Positions 11,762 through 23,899 of a DNA stretch of 52,132 nucleotides are shown here, one piece after another. Below the pieces are notes generated by a model that saw only the letters and a program-made list of their open reading frames with translations, searched no databases and was not told where the DNA came from. A program made the translations under genes and the position numbers. Origin of the DNA: Anaerolineae bacterium CG2_30_57_67 (GTDB lineage Bacteria > Chloroflexota > Anaerolineae > Anaerolineales > Villigracilaceae); assembly GCA_001872455.1 (NCBI GenBank), contig MNXJ01000001.1, positions 1 through 52,132 of the forward strand, read 5' to 3'. Each line of letters opens with the position of its first letter. Positions within the stretch are counted from its first letter, which is position 1.

Positions 11762-13828
11762 TTACGGGGTGGCCGTTGGAGAGGGGGTATCTGTTGGCGG
11801 GATGATGGGGGTATTGGTCGGGATGGCAGTTGGCGGACCCGTCGGCGAGGGCGTCGCTGTCGCAGGGATGGGCGTAGCGGTAGCGGCGAGGGGGCGCACG
11901 ATGCGTGGCGCAACCCATACTGCTCGATCACTGCTGGAAGCGCCCGCTGAAAGCACCGTCAGAATGAATTTGACATTTTGACCGGCCAGCGAACTCAGGT
12001 CAATATCCGTGTTATAAACCAGGCCTTCGTAGCGCTCGTTGAAAACCCACAGGATTTGCACCGGGCTGGAGCCGATTTGATATTCCAAACGATAGGTGAC
12101 GTAGCAGGCGGTTGCGCCATATTCGCAGCCCAAAGTTGCCAAAAAGTGGTCGCCTGTTTGCACGCTGAAGGCCGGGTAAATGCCCTGAATGTAGGTATTC
12201 GTGCCAGATTGGGGAAACGTCAGCAGGCTGGCGCGGCCATCGGTGACGCCGCTCTCCAGATGGGCATTGCCCATGACCAAGACGAATCCGCGTGCGTCGT
12301 TATCAGCGCCGGGGCAGGGTAAAACGCCTGCACCGCTGACCCATTGCGCCGCGCAGGCAGTGCTGACGAAGTCATAGGCCGTGCCGGGGGCAGGTGTCAC
12401 CGTCAGAACGAGGGTGGGCGTAGGCGTCAGGCTGGCGAGGCTGCTGACTTGAATATCCACCCAGAAGGGTTTGTTATAGCCCGCGCCAATGCCAAAAATT
12501 TGTCCGGTGGCGTTTTTGAGAATCCAGTAGCCACGGTAGGTTCCGTTGCTGGCAGGTGAAGTCAGGTTGGCGCTTAAGTCCACCATCTGACCGGGCGCAA
12601 CAGAGCCTGGGAAGGCGGTCACATCGGGACCGTTCATCTTGTCGCCGCTCTGGAAGACCAGGCTGTAGGATGCGTTCCAGGTGCAAGTTCCCACGTTTTT
12701 AATCCGCCAGGTTTTTAAGAAAGCCGTTGAGGGTGGATAGTTTGTGCCATCCGGCACGGTTACGTCGGCGACAAAACTGGCGCGGTCACAGCTGGTATTG
12801 GGTGTGGGGGTTACGGTTACCGTTCCCGGCGTGGATGTGACCGTTGGCGTCACCGGCGTTACCGTCACGCTGGGACCCACGCGGGCGATGCGTGGGCTGG
12901 CCCACAACGCGCGGTCGCCGCTGGCTGAACCAGCCGCGCCGACCCATAAAATAAATTTAACATTGTTGCCCGCTAGCGAACTCAAATTTATGTTGGCAAA
13001 ATAGGTGTAGCCTTCGTAACGTTCATTGAAAGACCAGAGAATTTGTGGGGTGGCCGTGCCAATTTGGTACATCAGCCGGAAATTGACGTAGCATGACGTT
13101 GCGCCGTATTCGCACCCCACAACCGCCTGGAAGCGGTCGCCAGCTTGCACAGTGTAAGCCGGGTAAACACCTTGAATGTAACCGTTATTGACATTTTGCG
13201 GCGCAGTCAACAAACCGGGAACGCTATCCGTAAAGCCAGTTTCCAGCCTGGGAGTGTTCAATTTCAGCACATAACCGCGCGCGTCGCCATCTGTGCCAGG
13301 GAAAGAGAGTGTGCCGGCGCCACTTGACCACTGCGCGGCGGCAACGTTGGCAGCGAAATCGTATGTAGCGCTGGGCGCGCCGCTGGAGACTTTAATCTCC
13401 ACCCAGAAAGATTTATTGGCGTTGGAGCCGATGCCGAACAATACCCCGCTGGCGTTTTTCAACTGCCAGTAGCCGCGATATGTGCCTTGCGCCGCTGGAG
13501 CCGTCATGGTTGCTGAAACATCCACCGTTTGGCCGGGTGCAACGGCCTGGGGTAACGCGACCAGTGCCGGGGCAGAGAGTTGCTCGCCGCTGACAAAGGC
13601 CAGGTTGTAGCCTGCACCCCACGTGCACGAACCAATATTTTTTAGCCGCCAGGTTTTGACAAACGAAACCCCTGGCTGAAAGGCCATTCCATCTGGGACA
13701 CTGACATCGGCGATAAACTGCGCCCAGTTACAAACTGTCGTGGTCTGAGGTGCGGCGCTAACCGGCGCAAGTGGCAAAAGTAACATCGTCAATATCAGCG
13801 CCACAGTTAGTAAATAGGTTTTTTTCAT
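11762..13828 (-). CDS. Secreted protein with two NBR1-Ig-like units and a Thr/Pro-rich tail
   Basis: A 688-residue exported protein. A signal peptide (MKKTYLLTVALILTMLLLPL, cut near VSA-AP) is followed by a tandem duplication of one two-domain unit. Each unit starts with an NBR1-Ig-like domain (SFVKTWRLKNIGSCTW at about residue 58, AFLKTWRIKNVGTCTW in the second) ending GTYRGYW...GIG...FWV. Each then has a domain of about 160 residues of unknown family (ARGYVLKLNTPRLETG / ARGFVLVMGNAHLESG; ILWSFNERYEG / ILWVFNERYEG). Thr-Pro-Val linkers separate the units, and the protein ends in a Thr/Pro tail of about 45 residues. The start at 13828 is chosen because AGGAG lies 7 bases from it; the ATG 6 bases upstream is too close. 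Likely a surface or matrix protein binding glycan or protein; the role is unknown. Confidence 0.85.
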   Translation of the reverse strand: MKKTYLLTVALILTMLLLPLAPVSAAPQTTTVCNWAQFIADVSVPDGMAFQPGVSFVKTWRLKNIGSCTWGAGYNLAFVSGEQLSAPALVALPQAVAPGQTVDVSATMTAPAAQGTYRGYWQLKNASGVLFGIGSNANKSFWVEIKVSSGAPSATYDFAANVAAAQWSSGAGTLSFPGTDGDARGYVLKLNTPRLETGFTDSVPGLLTAPQNVNNGYIQGVYPAYTVQAGDRFQAVVGCEYGATSCYVNFRLMYQIGTATPQILWSFNERYEGYTYFANINLSSLAGNNVKFILWVGAAGSASGDRALWASPRIARVGPSVTVTPVTPTVTSTPGTVTVTPTPNTSCDRASFVADVTVPDGTNYPPSTAFLKTWRIKNVGTCTWNASYSLVFQSGDKMNGPDVTAFPGSVAPGQMVDLSANLTSPASNGTYRGYWILKNATGQIFGIGAGYNKPFWVDIQVSSLASLTPTPTLVLTVTPAPGTAYDFVSTACAAQWVSGAGVLPCPGADNDARGFVLVMGNAHLESGVTDGRASLLTFPQSGTNTYIQGIYPAFSVQTGDHFLATLGCEYGATACYVTYRLEYQIGSSPVQILWVFNERYEGLVYNTDIDLSSLAGQNVKFILTVLSAGASSSDRAVWVAPRIVRPLAATATPIPATATPSPTGPPTAIPTNTPIIPPTDTPSPTATP

Positions 13829-14028
13829 TGTCATTCTCCTGAATAAAAGACAGCAATCATCCTAAAGTGCCGGACGGTAAGCGCGTACAATTCGTTCCGA
13901 CAGAATATTGCAAAAGCATTTCATCTCGCACTTATTGTATAACAAATTGCGTTACACGAAAATCGCAGAACCGTTGCGATGTAGCAAACATTTAACGCTT
14001 GTTCTATAATTTATGCTATACTTTTAAT

Positions 14029-14268
14029 GTGGTTTACTCTTCCCGCCCCTACTGGTTTGCTTGGACGCAAGCCTTGCAGGAAAAAGGGTTTAAACAAAGC
14101 GTCGCATGGCTTTTAGATGTTGCCGGCCCCCTGAACCTGTTGGGAGCGCAAGCGCTTTATATCGCCAGCCCATTGTTTGACCAGCGCGCCAGCCTTTGTG
14201 CGCTTGCTTCGTTGCTCGAAAATGAGCAAGACACCCAAGCCTTTTTAGAACTTTTGCGAGGAAATTAA
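14029..14268 (+). CDS. 79-aa protein heading the DUF6754/MutL operon
   Basis: A short, mostly helical protein starting at GTG 14029 (VVYSSRPYWFAWTQALQEKG), with GFKQSVAWLLDVAGPLNLLG in the middle and a charged C-terminal part (LLENEQDTQAFLELLRGN). The central helix is amphipathic, so a peripheral membrane or protein contact is possible; no classic membrane segment is present. Its stop lies 2 bases before the next start, so it belongs to the operon that follows. An upstream TTG at 13999 would add ten residues. No named family is recognised; its place at the head of the operon is the best clue. Confidence 0.6.
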   Translation: MVYSSRPYWFAWTQALQEKGFKQSVAWLLDVAGPLNLLGAQALYIASPLFDQRASLCALASLLENEQDTQAFLELLRGN

Positions 14269-14270
14269 CT

Positions 14271-15017
14271 GTGGAATCGCTCCATTGGCTTGCCCTCGGC
14301 ATCGTCGTCCTGACCAGTATCGGCATTGTCATCGCCGCCCTGCTGGTTGGCCGCAAACCCCCTACGTTTCGAGATATTCCCGCTTTCCGGCAAATTCGTC
14401 GCGCGGTCAGCATGGTTGTTGAAGATGGCAGCCGTCTGCACATCTCGCTGGGGCGCGGCAGCTTGTTGACCCCTTTTGGCGCTTCGGCATTGGCGGGCTT
14501 GAGCATGTTGCGCCAACTGGGCGAAACCACATCCCTTAGCGACCGGCCCTCCATTGCCACCAGCGGCGACGGCGTCGTCAACCTGGCGGCGCAGGATACG
14601 CTCCGTTCTGCACACGAAGCCCTACGCATCTCCAAACCTTTTGATATCAACCGCGGGCAGCTTACCGGCCTGACGCCCTTCTCCTATGCCGCCGGAGCAT
14701 TGCCCATTATGCGCGATAATCAAATTTCCACCAACGTACTGATTGGCAACTATGGCATTGAAATTGCCTTGATGACGGAAGCCGCTGAGCGCGAAGGCTC
14801 GGCGGTCGTCGCTGCCAGTGACAACTTGCCTGCTCAGGCTGTGCTATATGCCACCACTCCCGGCACACTCATCGGCGAAGAACTCTTCGCCGCCGGAGCC
14901 TACAACCAGGCTGGGAATTTCCACATCGCCAGCCTGTTGGCGCAAGATGTACTGCGCTGGCTGGTCATCCTTGCACTGCTGGCTGGCGCAATTCTCAAGG
15001 CGCTGGGAGTGTTCTAA
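14271..15017 (+). CDS. DUF6754-type membrane protein
   Basis: A 248-residue protein starting at GTG 14271. It has one N-terminal membrane helix (about 5-27), a large soluble domain, and a C-terminal helix (about 227-246). The soluble part includes VEDGSRLHISLGRGSLLTPF, STNVLIGNYGIEIALMTEAA and SAVVAASDNLPAQAVLYATT, a pattern I associate with DUF6754 of Chloroflexota. The domain has a regular alpha/beta look, but I cannot assign a reaction. Gene order puts it 2 bases after the 79-aa protein and next to the polytopic protein at 15018 (stop and start are adjacent), so these are co-translated. Confidence 0.75.
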   Translation: MESLHWLALGIVVLTSIGIVIAALLVGRKPPTFRDIPAFRQIRRAVSMVVEDGSRLHISLGRGSLLTPFGASALAGLSMLRQLGETTSLSDRPSIATSGDGVVNLAAQDTLRSAHEALRISKPFDINRGQLTGLTPFSYAAGALPIMRDNQISTNVLIGNYGIEIALMTEAAEREGSAVVAASDNLPAQAVLYATTPGTLIGEELFAAGAYNQAGNFHIASLLAQDVLRWLVILALLAGAILKALGVF

Positions 15018-15644
15018 ATGAATCGCATTGCCTCCGCCGGTTTTGCCGTACTTGCCATTGCCACAGGCATCCTCATTTTGCTTGGCTACTTCATCAACGT
15101 CCCTGCCGTTGCCGATTTTCGTCTGATTTTGCTGGAGTGGGCGGTCATCCTGGCCGGAGTGGCCGCACTGGTTGGCGTTGGTAATCTTTTTTCGGTACAT
15201 TTGCAGCGGGTGCGTCAGCGCGTGAAAGGCTCAACCTATAGCTTGCTTTTGCTGGTTTCTTTGCTGATTTCCCTCTTTCTGGGCGTTACGCCAGGGCTGG
15301 AAGCTGCTCAACACATCATGCTCAACGCCATCATGATTCCCATCGAAATTAGTCTGATGGCTTTGCTGGCCGTCAGCCTGACTTACGCTGGTATCCGGCT
15401 TTTGCGCCACCGCCCGACCCCGATTGCAATTTTGTTCATTGTTACAGTCTTGCTGGTCTTGCTGGGCACTGGCGCATGGCCGCTTATCGGCCAACTGTCA
15501 GTGTTTAGTGATTTGCGCGCCATTGTTGCCCAAGTCCTGGCGGCAGGCGGCGCGCGCGGCATTCTCATCGGCGTCGCTCTTGGAACACTCACCACCGGCC
15601 TGCGCGTTCTGCTTGGCGCAGATCGGCCTTACGGAGGCAAATAA
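15018..15644 (+). CDS. Polytopic membrane protein of the MutL operon
   Basis: A 208-residue integral membrane protein with about six hydrophobic helices, starting MNRIASAGFAVLAIATGILI. The short loops are basic on the predicted inner side (HLQRVRQRVKG, RLLRHRPTP). The last segment ends AGGARGILIGVALGTLTTGL. No transporter or enzyme signature is visible. Its stop overlaps the ATG of the zinc-ribbon protein that follows (TAATG). Its role is probably as a membrane platform for the neighbouring soluble parts; this is inference from operon structure. Confidence 0.75.
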   Translation: MNRIASAGFAVLAIATGILILLGYFINVPAVADFRLILLEWAVILAGVAALVGVGNLFSVHLQRVRQRVKGSTYSLLLLVSLLISLFLGVTPGLEAAQHIMLNAIMIPIEISLMALLAVSLTYAGIRLLRHRPTPIAILFIVTVLLVLLGTGAWPLIGQLSVFSDLRAIVAQVLAAGGARGILIGVALGTLTTGLRVLLGADRPYGGK

Positions 15645-18190
15645 TGGCCGACGTAAAATGTTCGATGTGTTCTGCCAGCAATCCGGCTGAAGCTGAAGTT
15701 TGTCAGCAGTGCGGAGCGCGTCTCAAGCCCCTGACCGCCCCGCTTGACTCGATTCATCCCGGTGAAACTCCCACCAAAATTAGTACGTCTGACCTCGAAA
15801 ACACCCTGCCTTCCTGGTTGCGTGATGTGCGCCAGGCGGCAGAAGAATCACCCGCCGCGCTGCCTGCCGCAACCCCTGAATTTCTAGCCGCGCCTGTTGC
15901 GCCCACTCCAAACACCCCGCTTGACTTTCTCTCTGGTCTCTCCGCCGCCAAAGATGATAGCGATGAACCTGTTCCCGATTGGTTGGCTGGCTTGCGCGAC
16001 AGCCTGCCCACCGAGGAAGTTTCCCAGAGCCAGAACCCCGTTCAGGATCTGCTCACCAGTCTGACGCCGCCTGCGCCGATTGAGCCGCAACCCGTAGAAC
16101 CTCCCGCCGAAGAAGAACCAACTTGGGACTTTCACGACTCGGCCACTGCTGAAACCCCCGATTGGCTGGCCGCGCTCAAAGCCCAGGAAAACACCCCGGC
16201 AGCGCCCAAAATTGAAGAAAAAGCGGAGATGAGCGCCACATCGGGAGATTTTCCCGATTGGTTGAGTCAACTTTCGTCCCAGACGTCGCCTGCTGCCACT
16301 TTGCCGGAGTCAGCGCCAAATACGTCATCATCTGCTACTGGCGATTTACCCGACTGGATAACCTCCTTGCGCGACGACTCTGCCGCGCCGGTGGCACAAC
16401 CCGCTTCCGCCGAAGCAACTGCCCCGCAAGGCGACCTGCCGGATTGGATGGCTTCGTTGCGCGACGACTCTGCCGCGCCGGTGGCACAACCCGCTCCCGC
16501 CAAAGTAACTGCCCCGCAAGGCGACCTGCCGGATTGGATGGCTTCGTTGCGCGACGACTCTGCCGCGCCGGTGGAACAACCCGCTCCCGCCGAAGCAACT
16601 GCCCCGCAAGGTGACCTGCCGGATTGGCTCGCCAATATCTCACCAAATGTCGAGCAATCGCCCAGCGTTGAAAAACCTGCCAAGGCCTTCGACACGGGCG
16701 CGTTTGCAGAATCTGCCTTGCCGGGTGAAGCCGAGCCAAATTGGCTGTCAGGCATTACTTCCAGTGCGCCGCAACCTGCCGCGCCAGAAGCCGAACCTGC
16801 CAGCGCTTTACCGGGCTGGCTGGACGCATTTTTCGTGCCAGGCGCAGAAAAACCCTCCGAAGCAGTTAACCAGGCGGCAGTGGAGATGCCCCCGGTGGCC
16901 GAAACGTTGCCAGCCGAGACTTCCGCCGCACCAACGGGAGCCGCTTCCGACGCCATTTTCTCCATGGACATGCCCGATTGGTTGGCCGGTTTTACGCCCA
17001 GCGACCTTGACATGCCCGCGCCCAAGGCTGAGATGGCATCTACTGCCTCAACGGAAACCCCAGAAATTACTCCGGTCAATCTTCCTTCGTGGGTGCAGGC
17101 CATGCGCCCGATGGAAGCGGTGATTGCCGACGCGGAAGATGTTGAAAACGAGCAAATGGTGGAAAAAAGCGGCCCATTGGCCGGGTTGCGCGCTGTTTTG
17201 CCGATGATTGTTGGCGGCATGACGATGCGCAAGCCAAAAACGTATTCCATCAAATTAAACATGGATGACGCTCAGCAAGCGCAGGTGGCTTTGCTGGAAA
17301 AATTACTGGCAACCGAAACAAAAGCGCAAGATTTGCCTGCCCGCGAAAAAAACCGCGCCGAGCGCCCGTTGCGCTGGGTGATTGCGCTGATTTTATTGCT
17401 GGTAACGGTCATTCCGTTGCTGATGGGCAGTCGCTGGCTGGACGTGCCGCAACTGGCCGGGGCAGATTTGCAAGCCTTTACCGAAACGCTCGGAAAAATT
17501 GAACCCAATGCGCCAGTGTTGGTCGTTTTTGACTATCAGCCCGCGCTGGCGGGCGAGTTGGAGCCGATTGCCGCCAGCGCCGTGCGCGAGTTGATGCTTA
17601 AGCAGGCGCGATTGGTGTTTGTGAGTACCACGCCCACCGGCGCGTTGATGTCAGAACGGTTGATGGCGCGGCTTGACCCGCAACAGACGTATACTTCCAG
17701 CGCGCAACTGGGCTATTTGCCTGGCGGCGCGGCGGGAATTCAAGTCTTTGCCAGCGCCCCAACGCGTATTGAGCGTGATGGTTTGAATGGCGCTGTTTTG
17801 GAATCGCCGACTCTGGCGGGTGTGACGACGCTGAATGATTTTGCCGCGGCGCTGATTTTGACCGATTCGCCGGACGAAGGCCGTCTCTGGGTCGAACAGG
17901 CTGCGCCCGAATTGCGCGGTAAGCCGCTGTTGATGGTCTTGAGCGCTCAGGCGGAACCGTTGCTGCGGCCTTACTTTGACTCTGGTCAGGTGCAGGGCTT
18001 AATGGTTGGCTTGAATAGCGGCGCGGTCTTCGAACAACAAGTTTCGCCAGATGGCCCGGTGCGTCAGGTTTGGGATGCCTTCGGTCTGGGATTGATTGCA
18101 ATGGAAGCGTTGATTTTTATCGGCGGCATCTGGGGGCTGGTGAGCGCCTGGCTGTCTGCGCGCGCCGCCCAGAAACAGGAAGAGGCCTGA
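15644..18190 (+). CDS. Zinc-ribbon scaffold protein with a dozen P-x-W motifs and two membrane helices
   Basis: An 848-residue protein. An N-terminal zinc ribbon (CSMC and CQQC, Cys 6, 9, 20, 23) is followed by some 500 residues of Pro/Ala/Glu-rich, probably disordered sequence. About twelve copies of a short motif are spread through it, at about residues 55, 110, 172, 204, 236, 266, 296, 326, 365, 387, 444 and 482: LPSWL, VPDWL, TPDWL, FPDWL, LPDWI, LPDWM (twice), LPDWL, EPNWL, LPGWL, MPDWL and LPSWV, usually followed by two residues and a hydrophobe. A membrane helix at about 573-592 leads to an extracytoplasmic domain of about 220 residues and a second helix near 812-836. The repeated motif suggests many docking sites for a partner. 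The function is unknown; the neighbours point to a scaffold for the MutL-like ATPase system. Confidence 0.8.
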   Translation: MADVKCSMCSASNPAEAEVCQQCGARLKPLTAPLDSIHPGETPTKISTSDLENTLPSWLRDVRQAAEESPAALPAATPEFLAAPVAPTPNTPLDFLSGLSAAKDDSDEPVPDWLAGLRDSLPTEEVSQSQNPVQDLLTSLTPPAPIEPQPVEPPAEEEPTWDFHDSATAETPDWLAALKAQENTPAAPKIEEKAEMSATSGDFPDWLSQLSSQTSPAATLPESAPNTSSSATGDLPDWITSLRDDSAAPVAQPASAEATAPQGDLPDWMASLRDDSAAPVAQPAPAKVTAPQGDLPDWMASLRDDSAAPVEQPAPAEATAPQGDLPDWLANISPNVEQSPSVEKPAKAFDTGAFAESALPGEAEPNWLSGITSSAPQPAAPEAEPASALPGWLDAFFVPGAEKPSEAVNQAAVEMPPVAETLPAETSAAPTGAASDAIFSMDMPDWLAGFTPSDLDMPAPKAEMASTASTETPEITPVNLPSWVQAMRPMEAVIADAEDVENEQMVEKSGPLAGLRAVLPMIVGGMTMRKPKTYSIKLNMDDAQQAQVALLEKLLATETKAQDLPAREKNRAERPLRWVIALILLLVTVIPLLMGSRWLDVPQLAGADLQAFTETLGKIEPNAPVLVVFDYQPALAGELEPIAASAVRELMLKQARLVFVSTTPTGALMSERLMARLDPQQTYTSSAQLGYLPGGAAGIQVFASAPTRIERDGLNGAVLESPTLAGVTTLNDFAAALILTDSPDEGRLWVEQAAPELRGKPLLMVLSAQAEPLLRPYFDSGQVQGLMVGLNSGAVFEQQVSPDGPVRQVWDAFGLGLIAMEALIFIGGIWGLVSAWLSARAAQKQEEA
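16367..16627 (+). repeat. 90-bp in-frame tandem repeat (2.9 copies)
   Basis: Units begin at 16371, 16461 and 16551 with GCGACGACTC and are almost identical. They encode a 30-residue block holding one LPDWM/L motif each, so copy number can change by slippage without breaking the frame. Confidence 0.9.
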
Positions 18191-18193
18191 GCC

Positions 18194-18862
18194 ATGACCA
18201 TCTCCACCGATTTAATCACCGGCATTCTTGGCTTTGTTTTTACCCTGCTGGTACTCAGTTACCTGGTGGAAGACAATCCGCTTTTTCGTGTAGCGGTGCA
18301 TATTTTTGTCGGTCTTTCGGCGGGCTACGTGGCTGTGGTGGTTTGGCAGCAGGTGATTATCAGTAAATTGCTGGTACCCATGCTGATGGGTGACTGGTTG
18401 CAACGCGCCTTCCTGCTGATTCCGCTGCTGATGAGTATTTTGTTGCTGGGAAAAATGTCACCGCGTTATCAGGCGTTTGGACGCCCGGTGGTGGCTTTTC
18501 TGGTGGGCGCTGGCGCGGCGGTGGCCATTGGCGGTGCCTTGCTCGGAACGCTTCTGCCGCAAATTCAGGCTTCCATTGCGCTCTTTGATTTTTCTGCAAC
18601 CAACGCGCGCCCACTGACGGAGACACTAACCGAAGCAATTTTTATTCTGCTTGGAACAGTTTCCACGCTGGCGTATTTCCAATTTACTGTGCGCGGAAAA
18701 AGCGGCAAACGCAACGCACTGTTGACCATCGTTGGACAAGTGTTCATCGCCATCACCTTTGGCGTTTTATTTGCCGGGGCGCTTACCGCCGCGCTGACGG
18801 CGCTAATTGACCGGGTAGCATTCCTGGTGCAATTTTTTGATACCATTTTCTTTTCCCTGTAA
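18194..18862 (+). CDS. Second polytopic membrane protein of the MutL operon
   Basis: A 222-residue integral membrane protein with about six or seven hydrophobic helices, starting MTISTDLITGILGFVFTLLV. It lies 3 bases after the scaffold gene and 5 bases before the MutL-like gene. A glycine/alanine-rich helix (VVAFLVGAGAAVAIGGALLG) could line a packed bundle or channel. No transport or enzyme family is recognised. It probably anchors the complex in the membrane. Confidence 0.75.
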   Translation: MTISTDLITGILGFVFTLLVLSYLVEDNPLFRVAVHIFVGLSAGYVAVVVWQQVIISKLLVPMLMGDWLQRAFLLIPLLMSILLLGKMSPRYQAFGRPVVAFLVGAGAAVAIGGALLGTLLPQIQASIALFDFSATNARPLTETLTEAIFILLGTVSTLAYFQFTVRGKSGKRNALLTIVGQVFIAITFGVLFAGALTAALTALIDRVAFLVQFFDTIFFSL

Positions 18863-18867
18863 AAACT

Positions 18868-20619
18868 ATGCCCGCATCTCTGGTTGAAGGCAATTCTCTT
18901 CTCGCTGTTGATATCGGCTCCATCACCACCCGCGCCGCTCTCTTTGACGTGGTGGAAAGCCAGTATCGCTTTATTGGCCTGGAATCAGCGCCGACCACTG
19001 CTGTTGCACCGCTTGGTAATGTGGCCTATGGTGTACAACACGCCATCGAAGCCCTGCAAAACACCCTTGGACGCCCGCTTACCAACGCCGATGGGCATCT
19101 CATCGTCCCATCCCTGCCGGACGGCTCGGGTGTAGACCAGTTTTCGGCTACGTTCTCGGTTGGAAACCCGATAAAGACTATCATCGTTGGTTTGCTGCCG
19201 GATGTCTCGCTCAAAAGCGTTGAGACTCTGGCGCATTCCACCTACACGCGTATTGTTGATGCTATTCACATGAACGACACCCGCCGTCCCGAAGAACAAC
19301 TAGACGCAGTGCTGAAATACAGCCCCGAATTGGTATTGATGGCCGGAGGCACAAACGGCGGCGCGACTCATTCCATTCAGAAAACGCTGGAACTGATTGG
19401 GCTGGCCGCCTACCTGATTCCGCAGGCCGAACGCCCGGCCTTGCTGTTTGCCGGGAACGAAGCCCTGCAGGCGAGTGTGCGCTCTTCGATGAAAAACCTC
19501 ACTTCGGGCGTGGCTGTCGCGCCGAATGTGCGCCCTCTGCCCGAAGTGGAAGACCTATCCCCGGCGCAATACACCCTCGCGCAAGTCATCACCAACCTGC
19601 GCGAGCGAGAAATGCCCGAATTGCAAGAAATTCGGGCGCTTGCTGGCGGATTTCTGCTCCCAGGCGCGTATGCTCAAGGGCGCATGGTACGCTTTCTGGC
19701 GCAATACTTCAACACCGGGCGCGGCGTGCTGGGCGTAGACCTGGGCGCTTCAGCGCTGACCATGACTGCTTCTTTTGGCGCGGACTTACATCTCAACGTC
19801 TTGCCGCAATTTGGCATTGGCGAACCTTTGGCAGCGCTCTTGCATCATACCAACCTGGATGAACTTGCCCGCTGGTTTCCGCTTGACCAACCTGTCGAAC
19901 GCTTGCACGAATACCTGCTACAAAAATCACTCTACCCTGCCGCCCTGCCCGCAACGGCAGATGAATTGGCGATGGAACATACGCTGGCGCGTCACCTGCT
20001 CCAACTGGCAGCGCGTACCATGCTCGGACGGCTTCCTCCGCAATACCGGCCAAAATCTAGCCTGCTCCCGTACTTCGAGCCGATTCTGGCTTCGGGCGCA
20101 ACGCTCACCAACGCCCCGACCCTCGGTCAGCGCCTGATGATTTTGCTCGACGGCCTGCAACCGGCAGGAATCACCACTCTGGCGCTCGACCAGAACAACC
20201 TGCTTGCCATGCTGGGCGGCGCGGCGGAGCAAAATAGCCTGCTTCCCGTCCAGGTCATTGACTCTGGCGCGTTGGCCTACCTGGCAACAGTCATTTCGCC
20301 GGTCAGTAACCAGGCCTATGGCGTGCCAATTCTGCGCGCCAAGCTGATTCGCGCTGACGGCACGGAAAGCGAAACTGAAGTAAAAATGGGCGGCCTGCAT
20401 GTTCTACCGCTCGAAAGCGGGAAAACAGCCCGACTGCAACTGCGCCCATTACAACGCGCCGACGTTGGCCTTGGCGCCGGCAAGGCCGGGGAAGTGGATG
20501 TAATTGGCAGCGCCATGGGAATCGTCATTGATGCGCGTGGACGCCCCATTCGCCTGCCCCCTGAACCTGACAAACGCCGCGAATTATTGCAACGTTGGCG
20601 TTCTCGCATGGAAGGCTGA
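18868..20619 (+). CDS. MutL-like ASKHA-fold ATPase (annotated elsewhere as 'glutamate mutase MutL')
   Basis: A 583-residue protein of the MutL family (PF13941), with the actin/Hsp70/sugar-kinase fold. Phosphate-1 is VDIGSITTRAALFDVVE (from residue 14), phosphate-2 is GVDLGASALTMTASF (about 288-302), and a glycine loop LMAGGTNGGA lies near 157. The family is named from a gene beside B12-dependent glutamate mutase (glmS/glmE), thought to reactivate or chaperone it. No mutase, B12 or glutamate-fermentation gene is near. All its neighbours are membrane or scaffold proteins, so here it more likely powers assembly or remodelling of a membrane complex. Nucleotide binding is well supported; the partner is inference. 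Confidence 0.85.
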   Translation: MPASLVEGNSLLAVDIGSITTRAALFDVVESQYRFIGLESAPTTAVAPLGNVAYGVQHAIEALQNTLGRPLTNADGHLIVPSLPDGSGVDQFSATFSVGNPIKTIIVGLLPDVSLKSVETLAHSTYTRIVDAIHMNDTRRPEEQLDAVLKYSPELVLMAGGTNGGATHSIQKTLELIGLAAYLIPQAERPALLFAGNEALQASVRSSMKNLTSGVAVAPNVRPLPEVEDLSPAQYTLAQVITNLREREMPELQEIRALAGGFLLPGAYAQGRMVRFLAQYFNTGRGVLGVDLGASALTMTASFGADLHLNVLPQFGIGEPLAALLHHTNLDELARWFPLDQPVERLHEYLLQKSLYPAALPATADELAMEHTLARHLLQLAARTMLGRLPPQYRPKSSLLPYFEPILASGATLTNAPTLGQRLMILLDGLQPAGITTLALDQNNLLAMLGGAAEQNSLLPVQVIDSGALAYLATVISPVSNQAYGVPILRAKLIRADGTESETEVKMGGLHVLPLESGKTARLQLRPLQRADVGLGAGKAGEVDVIGSAMGIVIDARGRPIRLPPEPDKRRELLQRWRSRMEG

Positions 20620-20623
20620 TTTG

Positions 20624-21700
20624 ATGATTGCCCCCACTTTACGCGTTCTCGCGCTCACCACTTTGTTGCGTACTCGTATTTTGCCCGTTGATGGGCGTGT
20701 TTTGGCGCGCCCGGGTCAAAAAGTCTCTCCGGCTGATGTAATTGCCGAAGCCGTCGTTGGACAAAAACACATCATTTTGGATATTGCCAGCGAATTGGGC
20801 ATCCCTGCCGCCAAAGCCGACGCGCTTCTCAAGGTCAAACGCGGCCAAAAAATTTCCAAGGGAGAGGCGCTGGGCGAATCGGGCGGGATTTTTGGCCGCG
20901 AGGCGCTTTCTCCGCTGGAAGGCTGGGTGGTTGCCACGGGCGGCGGCAAAGTAGTGCTAGAGACGGGTGGCGCGCCATTGTCAATTCGCGCCGGGCTGGG
21001 GGGCGTTGTTACTCAGGTGGTAGAAAATCGTGGTGTAACCATTCGCGCTTCAGGCGCGCTTGTGCAAGGCGCATGGGGAAATGGAAAAATAGATTCGGGC
21101 ATTCTTGCCAGCCTGATTGAAAGTCCGGACGACACGCTTGAGCCAGCGCGGCTGGATGTCAGCCAGCGCGGCTCGATGATTTTAGGCGGTCACGTTTCAG
21201 AATTAAAGGTGTTGCAAAACGCCGCCGAACTGTTGGTGCGCGGATTAATTCTTTCCAGCCTATCGCCAAATCTCGTATCAGCCGCTTACCAAGCGCCGTA
21301 TCCCATTCTTTTGCTGGAAGGTTTTGGCAAACGGCCGATGGGCGCGCAAGCCTACAAGCTGCTCACTACCAACCTGAAACGCGAGGTTTCCCTCAACGCG
21401 GAAGTATCCAACCGGATGAAGGGAACCCGCCCCGAAGTATTTATTACCCTGCCAGTGACGCAAGAGCCGCCGGAACCGCGTGATGTGGAAACATTTGCCC
21501 CCGGCCAAACCGTGCGAATTTGCTGGCTGGCCCGCCCGGCGCAAATTGGCATGCTGACGCAACTCCAATTAGAGTCGCCCCCGTTCCCCGGGGATTTTTC
21601 GGCCTCAAGCGTTCGAATTTCGGGCACAAGCGCCCAAGTGCGCCTGGAAAGTGGCGAAATGGTGCTTGCGCCACTCTCCAATCTTGAAACGCTGGGGTAA
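20624..21700 (+). CDS. Probable barrel-sandwich-hybrid protein paired with the MutL-like ATPase
   Basis: A 358-residue soluble protein starting MIAPTLRVLALTTLLRTRIL. The N-terminal part has repeated beta-hairpin turns, ILPVDGRVLARPGQKVSPAD and KVKRGQKISKGEALGESGG, then SPLEGWVVATGGGKVVLETG. These resemble the sandwich-hybrid folds found in lipoyl, KOW, NqrA and RnfC-type domains, but there is no modifiable ExKM or DKA lysine motif. The middle part (SQRGSMILGGHVSELKVLQN, then YPILLLEGFGKRPMG) looks like an enclosed alpha/beta domain. It lies 4 bases after the MutL-like gene. A TTG just in front (20621) is a possible alternative start. I do not recognise a named family. Confidence 0.6.
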   Translation: MIAPTLRVLALTTLLRTRILPVDGRVLARPGQKVSPADVIAEAVVGQKHIILDIASELGIPAAKADALLKVKRGQKISKGEALGESGGIFGREALSPLEGWVVATGGGKVVLETGGAPLSIRAGLGGVVTQVVENRGVTIRASGALVQGAWGNGKIDSGILASLIESPDDTLEPARLDVSQRGSMILGGHVSELKVLQNAAELLVRGLILSSLSPNLVSAAYQAPYPILLLEGFGKRPMGAQAYKLLTTNLKREVSLNAEVSNRMKGTRPEVFITLPVTQEPPEPRDVETFAPGQTVRICWLARPAQIGMLTQLQLESPPFPGDFSASSVRISGTSAQVRLESGEMVLAPLSNLETLG

Positions 21701-21727
21701 AATAGGACATTCATCGAGGAGAAAACC

Positions 21728-22366
21728 ATGTCAAACGCTTTCAATTTTGAAGATGACGAGCAGGTCCCGTTTGGCGAGCAACCGACGGAAGGCGAGCCTG
21801 GCGGAGACGCCCCGCAGGATGGCGGCGAAGGCGGTAACAAAAACTTTATGATTGCCGCAATCGCACTTGGCAGTATCTTCCTGCTTACGTTGCTGTGCGC
21901 GGCGGGCTACTTCCTGCTGGTTTTTCCCAAGCAACAGGCCGGGAAACTTTCTGCGGCGCAGACGGCGACATCCGTTATGGTTGACGCGGCGACTTCTGTG
22001 GCGCAGACCAAAGAGGTGCAAGACTACACGCCAACGCTAGAGCCGACGGCCACCTTCACACCCATTCCGACCAATACGCCCGTTTTTATTGACCCATCTA
22101 CTGCAACATCGGTGGCGACTTTAACGGGTGGCGCTGGTGCGCCTTTGGCGGGGGGGGCAGGCGCTACGCAAATCCAGCAGTCAGTAAATTCGACTGCCAC
22201 GCGTCAACGCCAAATGACCACTACGCTGACGCCCCAAGGAACCAGCACAAGCCTGGCCACTACCGGCTTTGCTGATGATGTTGGCCTGCCGTTGTTATTG
22301 GCCTCCGCGTTGATGATGGTCGCCATTCTCTTTTTGGCGCGTCGCCTGCGCCTCTCTCAAAAATAG
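21728..22366 (+). CDS. Double-anchored surface protein with LATTG sorting-like C-terminus
   Basis: A 212-residue protein: an acidic N-terminus (about 40 residues), a membrane helix (about 40-64), a Thr/Ala-rich stalk of about 110 residues that should lie outside, then LATTGFADDVGLPLLLASAL and a basic tail RRLRLSQK. LATTG, a hydrophobic stretch and a basic tail is the layout of a sortase signal (LPXTG/LAXTG class). The N-terminal helix has no obvious signal peptidase site. AGGAG precedes the ATG. It is the last gene of the operon, 27 bases after its neighbour and before a bidirectional terminator. Sortase processing is inference; no sortase gene is present here. Confidence 0.7.
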   Translation: MSNAFNFEDDEQVPFGEQPTEGEPGGDAPQDGGEGGNKNFMIAAIALGSIFLLTLLCAAGYFLLVFPKQQAGKLSAAQTATSVMVDAATSVAQTKEVQDYTPTLEPTATFTPIPTNTPVFIDPSTATSVATLTGGAGAPLAGGAGATQIQQSVNSTATRQRQMTTTLTPQGTSTSLATTGFADDVGLPLLLASALMMVAILFLARRLRLSQK

Positions 22367-22393: not shown

Positions 22394-22435
22394 GTAACAA
22401 AAAGCGCCGGTCATTAGACCGGCGCTTTTTGTTAC
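22394..22435. terminator. Bidirectional intrinsic terminator
   Basis: A GCGCCGGTC/GACCGGCGC stem with an ATTA loop, flanked by A5 and T5, sits between the convergent operon end (22366) and the phosphohexomutase stop (22445). It can end transcription on both strands. Confidence 0.95.
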
Positions 22436-22444
22436 CTTGCCATT

Positions 22445-23899
22445 TTACACAATGCTGGATGCCACTTTTTGGCCGTAGCCTAGCAATTCTTTAACCATGT
22501 TTGTGCTGCGCCCTTCGGCGTAGACGCGCAAAACAGGCTCCGTGCCGGATGGACGAATCAGCAACCAGGAATCATCAGCCATGATGTATTTGACGCCATC
22601 CAGTGTGGAGATTTCGGCTACTTTTTGCTCGCCAATTTCTGCCGGAGCGTGCGTGGTCAAAAATTTAGTCATTTCTTTTTTTGCAACCGGGCGCGCCAGG
22701 CGTAAGTCGGTGCGCTCGTAAAAGGCTGGGCCAACATCTTCCAGCAGGTCTTTGACCATCTCGTAGAGTGGTTTGCGCGCGTCGGCAATCATTTCTACCA
22801 GCAACAGCCCCATAATGGGTCCATCGCCTTCGGGAATGTGCCCCTTGAAGGAAATTCCGCCCGATTCTTCGCCGCCAATCAAGACATCTTCGGCCATCAT
22901 GAGGTCGGCAATGTGATTGAAGCCTACCGGCGTTTCGTACACCTTCAGCCCGTAACGTTTGGCAAGACGGTCAATCATGCGGGTGGTGGAAACGGTGCGA
23001 ACTGCCGCGCCGCTCAACCCGCGTTTCTCGACCAGATAGCGTAAGGCCAGCGCCATGATTTTGTGTGGGTCAACGAAATTGCCGCGCTCGTCCATTGCGC
23101 CGATGCGGTCCGCATCGCCATCCGTTGCCAGACCAAAATTACCCATCCCTGCGCCAATGGCTCCGGCCAGCGCGCCCAAGTTTTTGGCAATCGGTTCGGG
23201 GTGCGTGCCGCCAAAACCTGGGTTCATCTCGCCACGAATTTCGGCAATTTCACAACCGGTGCCTTGTAAAAAGGAATGAATGACACCGCGTCCAGAACCA
23301 TACATCGAATCGACCACGAAGCGTTGAGGCGCTTCGGCGATGATGTCGGTGCGAATTAGATGCGAGAGATGTTCAAAATAAGCGGGCAGAGGGTTGAACT
23401 TTTGAATCAGACCCGTTTGACGGGCCTTATCAAAATCCATCAAATTTGGGCCGCGAGCGCGCTCTTCGTTGTCGTTGATGTAGACTTCCACGCGGCGGCA
23501 TTCCTCCGGCAGGGCCGAGCCGCCATATGCGGCTTTGAGTTTGACACCGTTGTAGCGCGGGGCGTTGTGCGAAGCGGTAATCATCACCCCCCCGGCGGCC
23601 TGGTGATATTTGACAGCAAAAGAAATGACCGGGGTGGGCGCGTCGGCTTGCGCCAGCAAAACTGTGAATCCGTTGCCAGCCAGCACGCGGGCAACTTCGG
23701 CGGCGTAGCGGTCAGACAGGAAACGTGTGTCGTAGCCCACTACAAATTTATGGGAATCAATGTTTGGAATGCTGGATGTGTCCCACTGTTCTGAAGCGGC
23801 GGCGTCGGCAATCGCCTGAGCAACCATGCGCAGGTTGCTAAAGGTAAAACTATCTGATATGACGGCGCGCCAGCCGTCAGTTCCAAAGTGGATTGGCAT
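22445..23899 (-). CDS. Phosphohexomutase (phosphoglucomutase/phosphomannomutase family)
   Basis: A 484-residue cytoplasmic enzyme interconverting hexose 1- and 6-phosphates. All four family loops are visible: the phosphoserine loop ITASHNAPRYNGVK (about residue 102), the metal loop ATDGDADRIGAMDE, the sugar-specificity loop GGEESGGISFKGH and the phosphate-binding RPSGTEPVLRVYAEG. GEESGG fits phosphoglucomutase or dual-specificity enzymes. GGAG lies upstream of the ATG. It faces the MutL operon and could supply sugar phosphates for the glycan cluster downstream. Confidence 0.92.
   Translation of the reverse strand: MPIHFGTDGWRAVISDSFTFSNLRMVAQAIADAAASEQWDTSSIPNIDSHKFVVGYDTRFLSDRYAAEVARVLAGNGFTVLLAQADAPTPVISFAVKYHQAAGGVMITASHNAPRYNGVKLKAAYGGSALPEECRRVEVYINDNEERARGPNLMDFDKARQTGLIQKFNPLPAYFEHLSHLIRTDIIAEAPQRFVVDSMYGSGRGVIHSFLQGTGCEIAEIRGEMNPGFGGTHPEPIAKNLGALAGAIGAGMGNFGLATDGDADRIGAMDERGNFVDPHKIMALALRYLVEKRGLSGAAVRTVSTTRMIDRLAKRYGLKVYETPVGFNHIADLMMAEDVLIGGEESGGISFKGHIPEGDGPIMGLLLVEMIADARKPLYEMVKDLLEDVGPAFYERTDLRLARPVAKKEMTKFLTTHAPAEIGEQKVAEISTLDGVKYIMADDSWLLIRPSGTEPVLRVYAEGRSTNMVKELLGYGQKVASSIV

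Follow-up and report, generated by a model that had tools for sequence, protein, structure and literature searches.

The window analysed here, a stretch of 52,132 nucleotides of contig MNXJ01000001.1 from Anaerolineae bacterium CG2_30_57_67, contains eight rightward open reading frames (ORFs) between positions 14029 and 22366, one of which encodes a MutL-like protein of the actin-fold (ASKHA) class. The first-pass annotation of this DNA had described the eight as a single operon with gaps of 0-27 bases, and had suggested that an actin-like ATPase in the company of membrane proteins might form an envelope complex reminiscent of the PilM or FtsA systems. The end-to-end layout holds, with spacings of 2, 0, -1, 3, 5, 4 and 27 bases from g1 to g8, i.e. 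from -1 to +27 rather than from 0 to 27. Comparison with other genomes supports the existence of one conserved system, in which a probable ATP-binding soluble core (g6 and g7) is combined with a membrane module (g2, g3, g5 and the C-terminal half of g4, hereafter g4C). The genes are:

14029-14268, + strand: g1, small protein of 79 amino acids (aa), GTG start
14271-15017, + strand: g2, 248 aa, DUF6754 protein with a transmembrane segment, a predicted Rossmann-like (RCK-like) alpha/beta domain and another transmembrane segment
15018-15644, + strand: g3, 208 aa, polytopic membrane protein with a conserved GGARGILIGVALG..DRPYGG end
15644-18190, + strand: g4, 848 aa, N-terminal zinc ribbon, disordered-looking linker with 12 P-x-W-[LMIV] motifs, transmembrane segment, alpha/beta-looking domain, transmembrane segment (domains and membrane segments laid out by eye)
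18194-18862, + strand: g5, 222 aa, polytopic membrane protein with FSYLiGDNPLFR..FVGvSAGY
18868-20619, + strand: g6, 583 aa, MutL-family actin-fold (ASKHA) protein with an extra C-terminal DARGRP domain of about 115 aa
20624-21700, + strand: g7, 358 aa, predicted barrel-sandwich-hybrid domains, swivelling domain and probable C-terminal KOW domain
21728-22366, + strand: g8, 212 aa, acidic N-terminus, transmembrane segment, Thr/Pro-rich stalk and C-terminal transmembrane segment

Only two of the eight proteins, g2 (DUF6754) and g6 (MutL), exceed a Pfam cut-off, the other six being below it or unmatched. No sequence homology was found among the operon proteins, including g2 against g4C, and a sequence search for solved relatives of g2, g3, g4C, g5 and g6 returned nothing convincing (g4C was used as a single-sequence query). 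Membrane segments were assigned by a rough hydropathy script in the homologues and by eye in the window copies, and structure models were analysed for g2 and g7.

Conservation of the cluster in Chloroflexota

The phylum sample comprised 151 genomes (G labels) and was accompanied by 14 control genomes; loci fetched for inspection carry L labels. DUF6754 (PF20539) occurs in 38 of the 151 phylum genomes versus none of the controls, and g6 is present in all 38. According to our tables, 30 of these genomes have g2 and g6 on the same contig, at most 10 kb apart, and in the remaining eight the contig breaks off no more than about 3 kb downstream of g2. Searching named genomes yielded 392 confirmed g2 relatives, of which the best 80, all with titles naming Anaerolineae, Anaerolineales or other Chloroflexota, were analysed as loci. 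A strict script recovered the order g1-g8 in 42 of the 80, so the arrangement is not peculiar to the genome of the window, a possibility that the first-pass annotation had left for checking. The individual labels were g1 in 64 loci, g3 and g4 in 74 each, g5 and g6 in 65 each, g7 in 62 and g8 in 57. At least 12 of the 80 loci visibly run into a contig end, and a greedy ORF caller overlooked genes: g2 itself was labelled in only 77 loci though all 80 had been selected by it.

In several other families the order g2-g3-g4-g5-g6 is retained, often with g1 ahead, and with g7 behind or elsewhere. Many fetched loci contain the g6-g7 pair with no recognised membrane gene alongside, sometimes preceded by a small zinc-ribbon gene. 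It is the g6-g7 pair that forms the more widespread core, the membrane genes being confined to a subset of genomes; this division, like the linear-motif array of g4 described below, had escaped the first-pass annotation. A tree of 53 g6 proteins, built by a quick method and with 17 forks left open, broadly follows the families, and about seven changes are needed to place the membrane set on it, at least three of them by well-supported branches. The membrane-set labels were drawn from fetched loci and are lacking at least for L041 and L046, although the respective genomes, G083 and G015, have DUF6754; because of this incompleteness, the tree fits, without proving, an old cluster with later losses. 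A plasmid search returned one distant GlmL for g6 and nothing for g2. Our literature search found no paper naming DUF6754, and none linking Chloroflexota, glutamate mutase and MutL.

The MutL-like protein g6 and its partner g7

For counting across the 151 genomes, g6 was identified with profile A6 (E ≤ 1e-10) and g7 with profile A2 (E ≤ 1e-5). They were found in 90 and 87 genomes, respectively, with both in 85 and neither in 59 (Fisher p 2e-33, relatedness of the genomes ignored). Five genomes have g6 only (G002, G015, G089, G116 and G136), the matches in G089 being of the GlmL type, and two have g7 only (G123 and G137). The joint presence persists where the genes are more than one megabase apart (G110 and G118). 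Nothing else in our data points so strongly to a joint function as this co-occurrence, which makes g7 a near-obligate, nearly inseparable partner of g6.

The g6 protein belongs to the MutL family: it matches PF13941 with 174.8 bits (cut-off 27) over residues 12-465, and all 29 members of profile A6 match the same family at E ≤ 1. The GlmL equivalog model NF040745, by contrast, gives 62.8 bits where 475 are required. Beyond the MutL match, about 115 residues carry the DARGRP motif, whose Asp is present in 87 of 91 family members and falls in a gap in the other four. Two Asp positions are read by us, from the family, as nucleotide loops: of the 91 sequences, 73 have D at the phosphate-1 position, 15 have E and three have N, and 80 have D at the phosphate-2 position. 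From these sequence features the g6 family likely binds ATP.

The first-pass annotation had remarked that no mutase gene lies nearby, and this extends to the entire genome, in which GlmE (PF06368) has no match. At E ≤ 0.001, PF06368 is matched in nine of the 151 genomes, over its 26.6-bit cut-off in two (G089 and G137) and below it in seven. Neither of the two has DUF6754; five genomes with DUF6754 (G034, G043, G078, G102 and G110) have matches of 20-22 bits, under the cut-off. With this distribution, the idea that the ATPase might always accompany glutamate mutase elsewhere did not come true. In G089 there are two GlmL-type proteins, each beside a GlmE match on its contig, and they match the g6 profile only up to position ~460-465 of 579. 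Thus, g6 shares with GlmL/MutL the ASKHA core, aligned over 12-465 with 175 bits, and differs from it in having no mutase partner, an extra C-terminal domain, the near-fixed partner g7 and a score far below the equivalog cut-off.

In the PilM-PilNOP and FtsA-FtsZ systems, an actin-fold protein is bound to a short peptide of its partner. The operon resembles them in the way it might work, by virtue of an actin-fold protein, membrane partners and, in g4, a P-x-aromatic-L peptide like that of the FtsZ tail. It differs in that the g6 family matches neither PilM nor FtsA (Pfam, E ≤ 1, 29 members), that the genome has a normal FtsZ, and that the peptide comes in arrays instead of singly. No pilus family, PilN, PilO and PilP included, was matched by the other seven operon genes. 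Of the first-pass proposal, the conserved cluster rich in membrane parts and separate from glutamate mutase is supported, and membership of g6 in the PilM or FtsA families is not. We had also considered g6 as a substitute for FtsA, and dropped this because the genome carries its own FtsZ, in whose immediate neighbourhood FtsA and FtsQ were recognised by eye.

The structure of g7 is known to us as a model (predicted local distance difference test, pLDDT, 88.9), so its folds are predicted only. The model suggests biotinyl-type domains at residues 14-141, a likeness to the RnfC sandwich hybrid at 46-115 and a swivelling domain at 145-276. In sequence, g7 scores 13.4 bits with Pfam RnfC_N (cut-off 25.6). 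The swivelling domain superimposes on UPF0107 with a VIA Z of 9.3 (2.4 Å, 112 residues) and on an AcnX chain with Z 8.6; a Z of 9.3 barely exceeds the 7-8 typical of models without clear matches, and families outside the list may fit as well. The g7 profile reaches the KOW domains of NusG/Spt5, with a best E of 4.5e-6 for Spt5, none of whose stretches passes the limit by itself, and weakly matches the sandwich-hybrid part of RNA polymerase beta'. These E-values are unsafe, because a lysozyme entry that looks unrelated reaches 6.9e-6 elsewhere in g7. Foldseek ranks NusG first for the model, but with a TM-score of 0.15, and the Pfam KOW family does not match the window g7 and gives 19 bits (cut-off 22.3) for the g7 of L057. 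No listed solved protein spans the whole of g7 with a sound superposition. The resemblance to the N-terminal sandwich-hybrid domain of RnfC/NqrA, to the AcnX small subunit/UPF0107 and to NusG/Spt5 KOW is one of domain folds in the model; unlike these proteins, g7 has no cofactor or RNA-polymerase context.

Where g7 is unlinked from g6, its neighbourhood was inspected in eight genomes (L223-L230) from families f18, f28 and f57, which we take to be Chloroflexia. A receiver-domain protein with an MglB-like C-terminus is adjacent to g7 or one gene off in all eight loci (in L225, where the ORF caller missed g7, its place was taken from the genome-wide profile search), and a histidine kinase relative lies between or beside the two genes in five. 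Two of the eight proteins were scanned with the model of the GTPase-activating protein MglB, NF052242 (cut-off 200 bits); they score 36.1 and 28.1 bits, and on this basis an MglB-like fold is plausible only.

The zinc-ribbon protein g4 and its motif array

The N-terminal zinc ribbon of g4 scores 19.8 bits in Pfam (cut-off 25); of the 98 N-terminal g4 stretches in the family set, counting fragments, 83 have its CxxC..CxxC pattern. Between the ribbon and the first transmembrane segment, the window g4 contains 12 copies of P-x-W-[LMIV], compared to 0.29 expected from shuffling, with a family consensus of approximately [ED]-[LTV]-P-D-W-L (PDWL). Among the 66 g4 proteins of the named loci that remain after leaving out fragments shorter than 600 aa, 65 have at least three motifs (median 11, maximum 19, minimum 2, shuffled mean 0.23). 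The copy number reaches 46 in G118, presumably Chloroflexus aurantiacus, and 41 in G034, which belongs to the same family as G110. The P-x-aromatic-L core resembles the FtsZ tail, DLDIPTFLRNRR in the window's genome, a likeness that we regard as an analogy.

Such motifs are not limited to the membrane-anchored g4. A zinc-ribbon protein without predicted transmembrane segments lies beside g6 in several loci and bears 3-14 motifs in L053-L056, L058 and L059, and only one in L057. Two motifs occur within g6 itself in two of 100 g6 proteins (L037 and L038), in L037 in the C-terminal tail. The codon pattern for PDWL is found 60 times in the window's genome versus 35 times for a reversed-pattern control; five of the 60 are in g4 and 12 in a gene of the TPR-array-TPR type, the second array protein of this genome. 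The latter is represented by two pieces, L176:4178-6146 (contig C28) and L177:3832-5778 (contig C75), which are probably halves of one gene split between contig ends, since complete homologues contain the array together with both protein ends; the two contig ends do not overlap. Related genomes encode such a protein too: six of 12 stretches fetched have a homologue in which the array and both ends are preserved, and the homologues of L191-L195 adjoin an ORF of 431-433 aa. Genome G088, which has a shorter TPR-array protein, lacks DUF6754, yet it has the g6-g7 pair; this pattern is compatible with the pair being the receptor of the array. In a strict motif scan, clusters (two motifs within 2 kb) were found, among the matches listed, in 15 genomes from five families, all with g6.

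The remaining membrane and surface proteins

The g2 protein scores 80 bits with PF20539 (cut-off 27). Its model (pLDDT 84, predicted template modelling score 0.72) consists of a helix, an alpha/beta Rossmann-like domain and another helix, the end helices being hydrophobic. The best superposition is with the RCK domain of KtrA (VIA Z 10.4, 2.8 Å, 116 residues, 10% identity), other Rossmann folds reach Z 8-9, and Foldseek found nothing under 0.001 (best E 3.6e-3); to call g2 RCK-like or Rossmann-like is a statement about the predicted fold only. Homologues of g3 and g5 mostly have 5-7 membrane segments. Neither protein matched a transporter family, and the best E in a Pfam scan of 18 g3 members was 0.024.

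Homologues of g8 have two membrane segments. Many of them look like sortase substrates, because LPxTG is present in 34 of 65 sequences and is followed, in the members shown, by a hydrophobic stretch and a basic tail. The window g8 has LATTG at this place; two sortase matches exceed the cut-off in its genome.

In the Myxococcus protein GltJ, a cytoplasmic zinc ribbon is connected by a linker and a transmembrane segment to an extracytoplasmic part, and we have read g4 with this architecture in mind. The GltJ model itself does not match g4; among the eight operon proteins it matches only g8, weakly, with 20.7 bits against a cut-off of 450 and in the Thr/Pro-rich part, so that kinship with the Glt/Agl machinery finds no support there.

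Boundaries and flanking genes

The operon ends before a structured element and is flanked by leftward ORFs on both sides:

11762-13834, - strand: upstream ORF, 690 aa, a secreted-looking domain present as two tandem repeats, followed by a Thr/Pro-rich tail
22394-22435, no strand assigned: perfect 19-bp hairpin with A/T flanks (-34.1 kcal/mol, z -10)
22445-23899, - strand: downstream ORF, beyond the hairpin

The hairpin, located between convergent ORFs, is a probable bidirectional terminator; it was absent from the list of a simple terminator scan. The repeats of the 690-aa ORF recall, by eye only, the Ig-like modules of the NBR1 type. In other genomes the genes upstream of the operon encode RadA-like, PIN-TRAM, D-Tyr-tRNA deacylase, macro-domain, phosphofructokinase and polyketide cyclase proteins, and since they vary among genomes, they provide no functional clue. 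In L036, g1 is preceded at a short distance by a macro-domain gene (L036:4611-5123), and a D-Tyr-tRNA deacylase gene adjoins g1 in L037 (5407-5916) and L038 (13120-13581). In G139, a 320-aa ORF (L210:5144-6106) with a g1-like match of 2e-9, blank in a Pfam scan, is situated directly upstream of a divergent g6.

A tentative model and its alternatives

We tentatively favour the explanation that the operon products assemble into a cell-envelope complex, with the ATP-binding g6-g7 pair docked on a multivalent membrane scaffold. The gene order and its conservation, the co-occurrence of g6 and g7, the motif array and the absence of GlmE are observed. From these we infer the rest of the model, namely that a complex forms, how it is oriented in the membrane, that the motifs bind g6-g7, that ATP exerts control, and what the complex does. 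The membrane module would be made of g2, g3, g5 and the C-terminal half of g4, with which g6 and g7 would associate as a soluble pair. The zinc ribbon and the flexible tail of g4, with about 12 [DE]-hydrophobic-P-D-W-L peptides, would extend into the cytoplasm, where the peptides would most likely recruit many copies of one partner, our guess being the g6-g7 pair. By such multivalent recruitment, the nucleotide state of g6 could control clustering or assembly at the membrane, and g8 would link the complex to the outside. Several observations weigh against this picture. The array is absent from the complete short g4 proteins of L036, L042, L045, L051 and L052, in genomes that have g6, and is therefore not essential to the core (the g4 of L050, in which no motif was seen, is cut by the contig start). 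A looser codon-pattern scan for motif pairs across the 151 genomes gave as many controls as matches in many genomes, and single motif matches also occur in genomes without g6, e.g. G017. Finally, E or N replaces the phosphate-1 Asp in 18 of 91 g6 proteins, which speaks against conserved hydrolysis of ATP and makes it doubtful for the family.

The most serious alternative, in our opinion rather unlikely, is that g6-g7 is a chaperone or reactivating factor for a membrane enzyme or transporter composed of g2, g3, g4C and g5, and has no structural role. GlmL and the diol-dehydratase reactivases have a proposed chaperone or reactivating role, and the MutL family forms a chaperone-like group of ASKHA proteins. 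That g6 falls in this family, and that the g6-g7 pair stands in many fetched loci without recognised membrane genes, would suit a general chaperone, but the operon has no subunit that can be recognised as enzyme-like, and we know of no reactivase with a motif array or a zinc ribbon. That g6 is a genuine accessory protein of the B12-dependent glutamate mutase, as suggested by the family name, the partial match to GlmL models and the PF06368 matches in nine genomes, five of them with DUF6754, we find hardly credible: the equivalog score and the co-occurrence data led us to reject it, and it is largely refuted. A ligand-gated transporter or sensor, in which the RCK-like g2 would sense a nucleotide or ion and gate the polytopic g3 and g5, draws on the fold of g2, nearest to the RCK domains of KtrA, TrkA and MthK; it seems to us quite improbable in view of the 10% identity, the similar Z of other Rossmann folds, the Foldseek E of 3.6e-3 or worse, and the want of a transporter family match for g3 and g5.

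The operon could also belong to a gliding or polarity machine of filamentous Chloroflexota, with the cytoplasmic zinc-ribbon scaffold reaching through the membrane to the surface and steered by Mgl-type signalling. To our knowledge, Anaerolineales, in which the operon is widespread, are not a gliding group, and this argues against such a role, as do the low MglB-like scores, the lack of a recognised motor, and the fact that the other loci fetched have no receiver/MglB-like gene in the vicinity of g6 or g7 (MglA was not searched for). In its favour, the cluster is present in G110, taken as Herpetosiphon aurantiacus, as well as in two related families, and unlinked g7 has a receiver/MglB-like gene close by in eight of eight genomes. 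The gliding genes of Herpetosiphon and other Chloroflexi are stated to be unidentified in a genome paper (PMC3368417); a 2026 review counts gliding in Chloroflexota among further reports that fall outside the canonical systems (PMC13104615), and small MglA-type GTPases are reported in Chloroflexi (PMC4316618). The passages found of the C. aurantiacus genome paper contain no discussion of these operon genes (PMC3150298). We consider a gliding or polarity role improbable, and worth a test, no more. Much the same applies to the boldest version of the envelope complex, an undescribed Chloroflexota-wide machine in which a mutase-free MutL-type protein and g7 would sit on the scaffold via a PDWL code common to several proteins and serve surface movement or polarity in filamentous gliders; as a whole, this remains a long shot.

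Conclusions

Whichever role the operon may have, the family name alone is no ground for annotating MutL-like ATPases of this kind as glutamate-mutase proteins. Six of the eight operon products are without a Pfam family over the cut-off, and the occurrence of the cluster in Herpetosiphon aurantiacus makes the system testable in a cultured organism. The PDWL array offers a specific candidate docking signal that can be tested, and the receiver/MglB-like gene close to g7 may provide a way into the question of how Chloroflexota filaments move.

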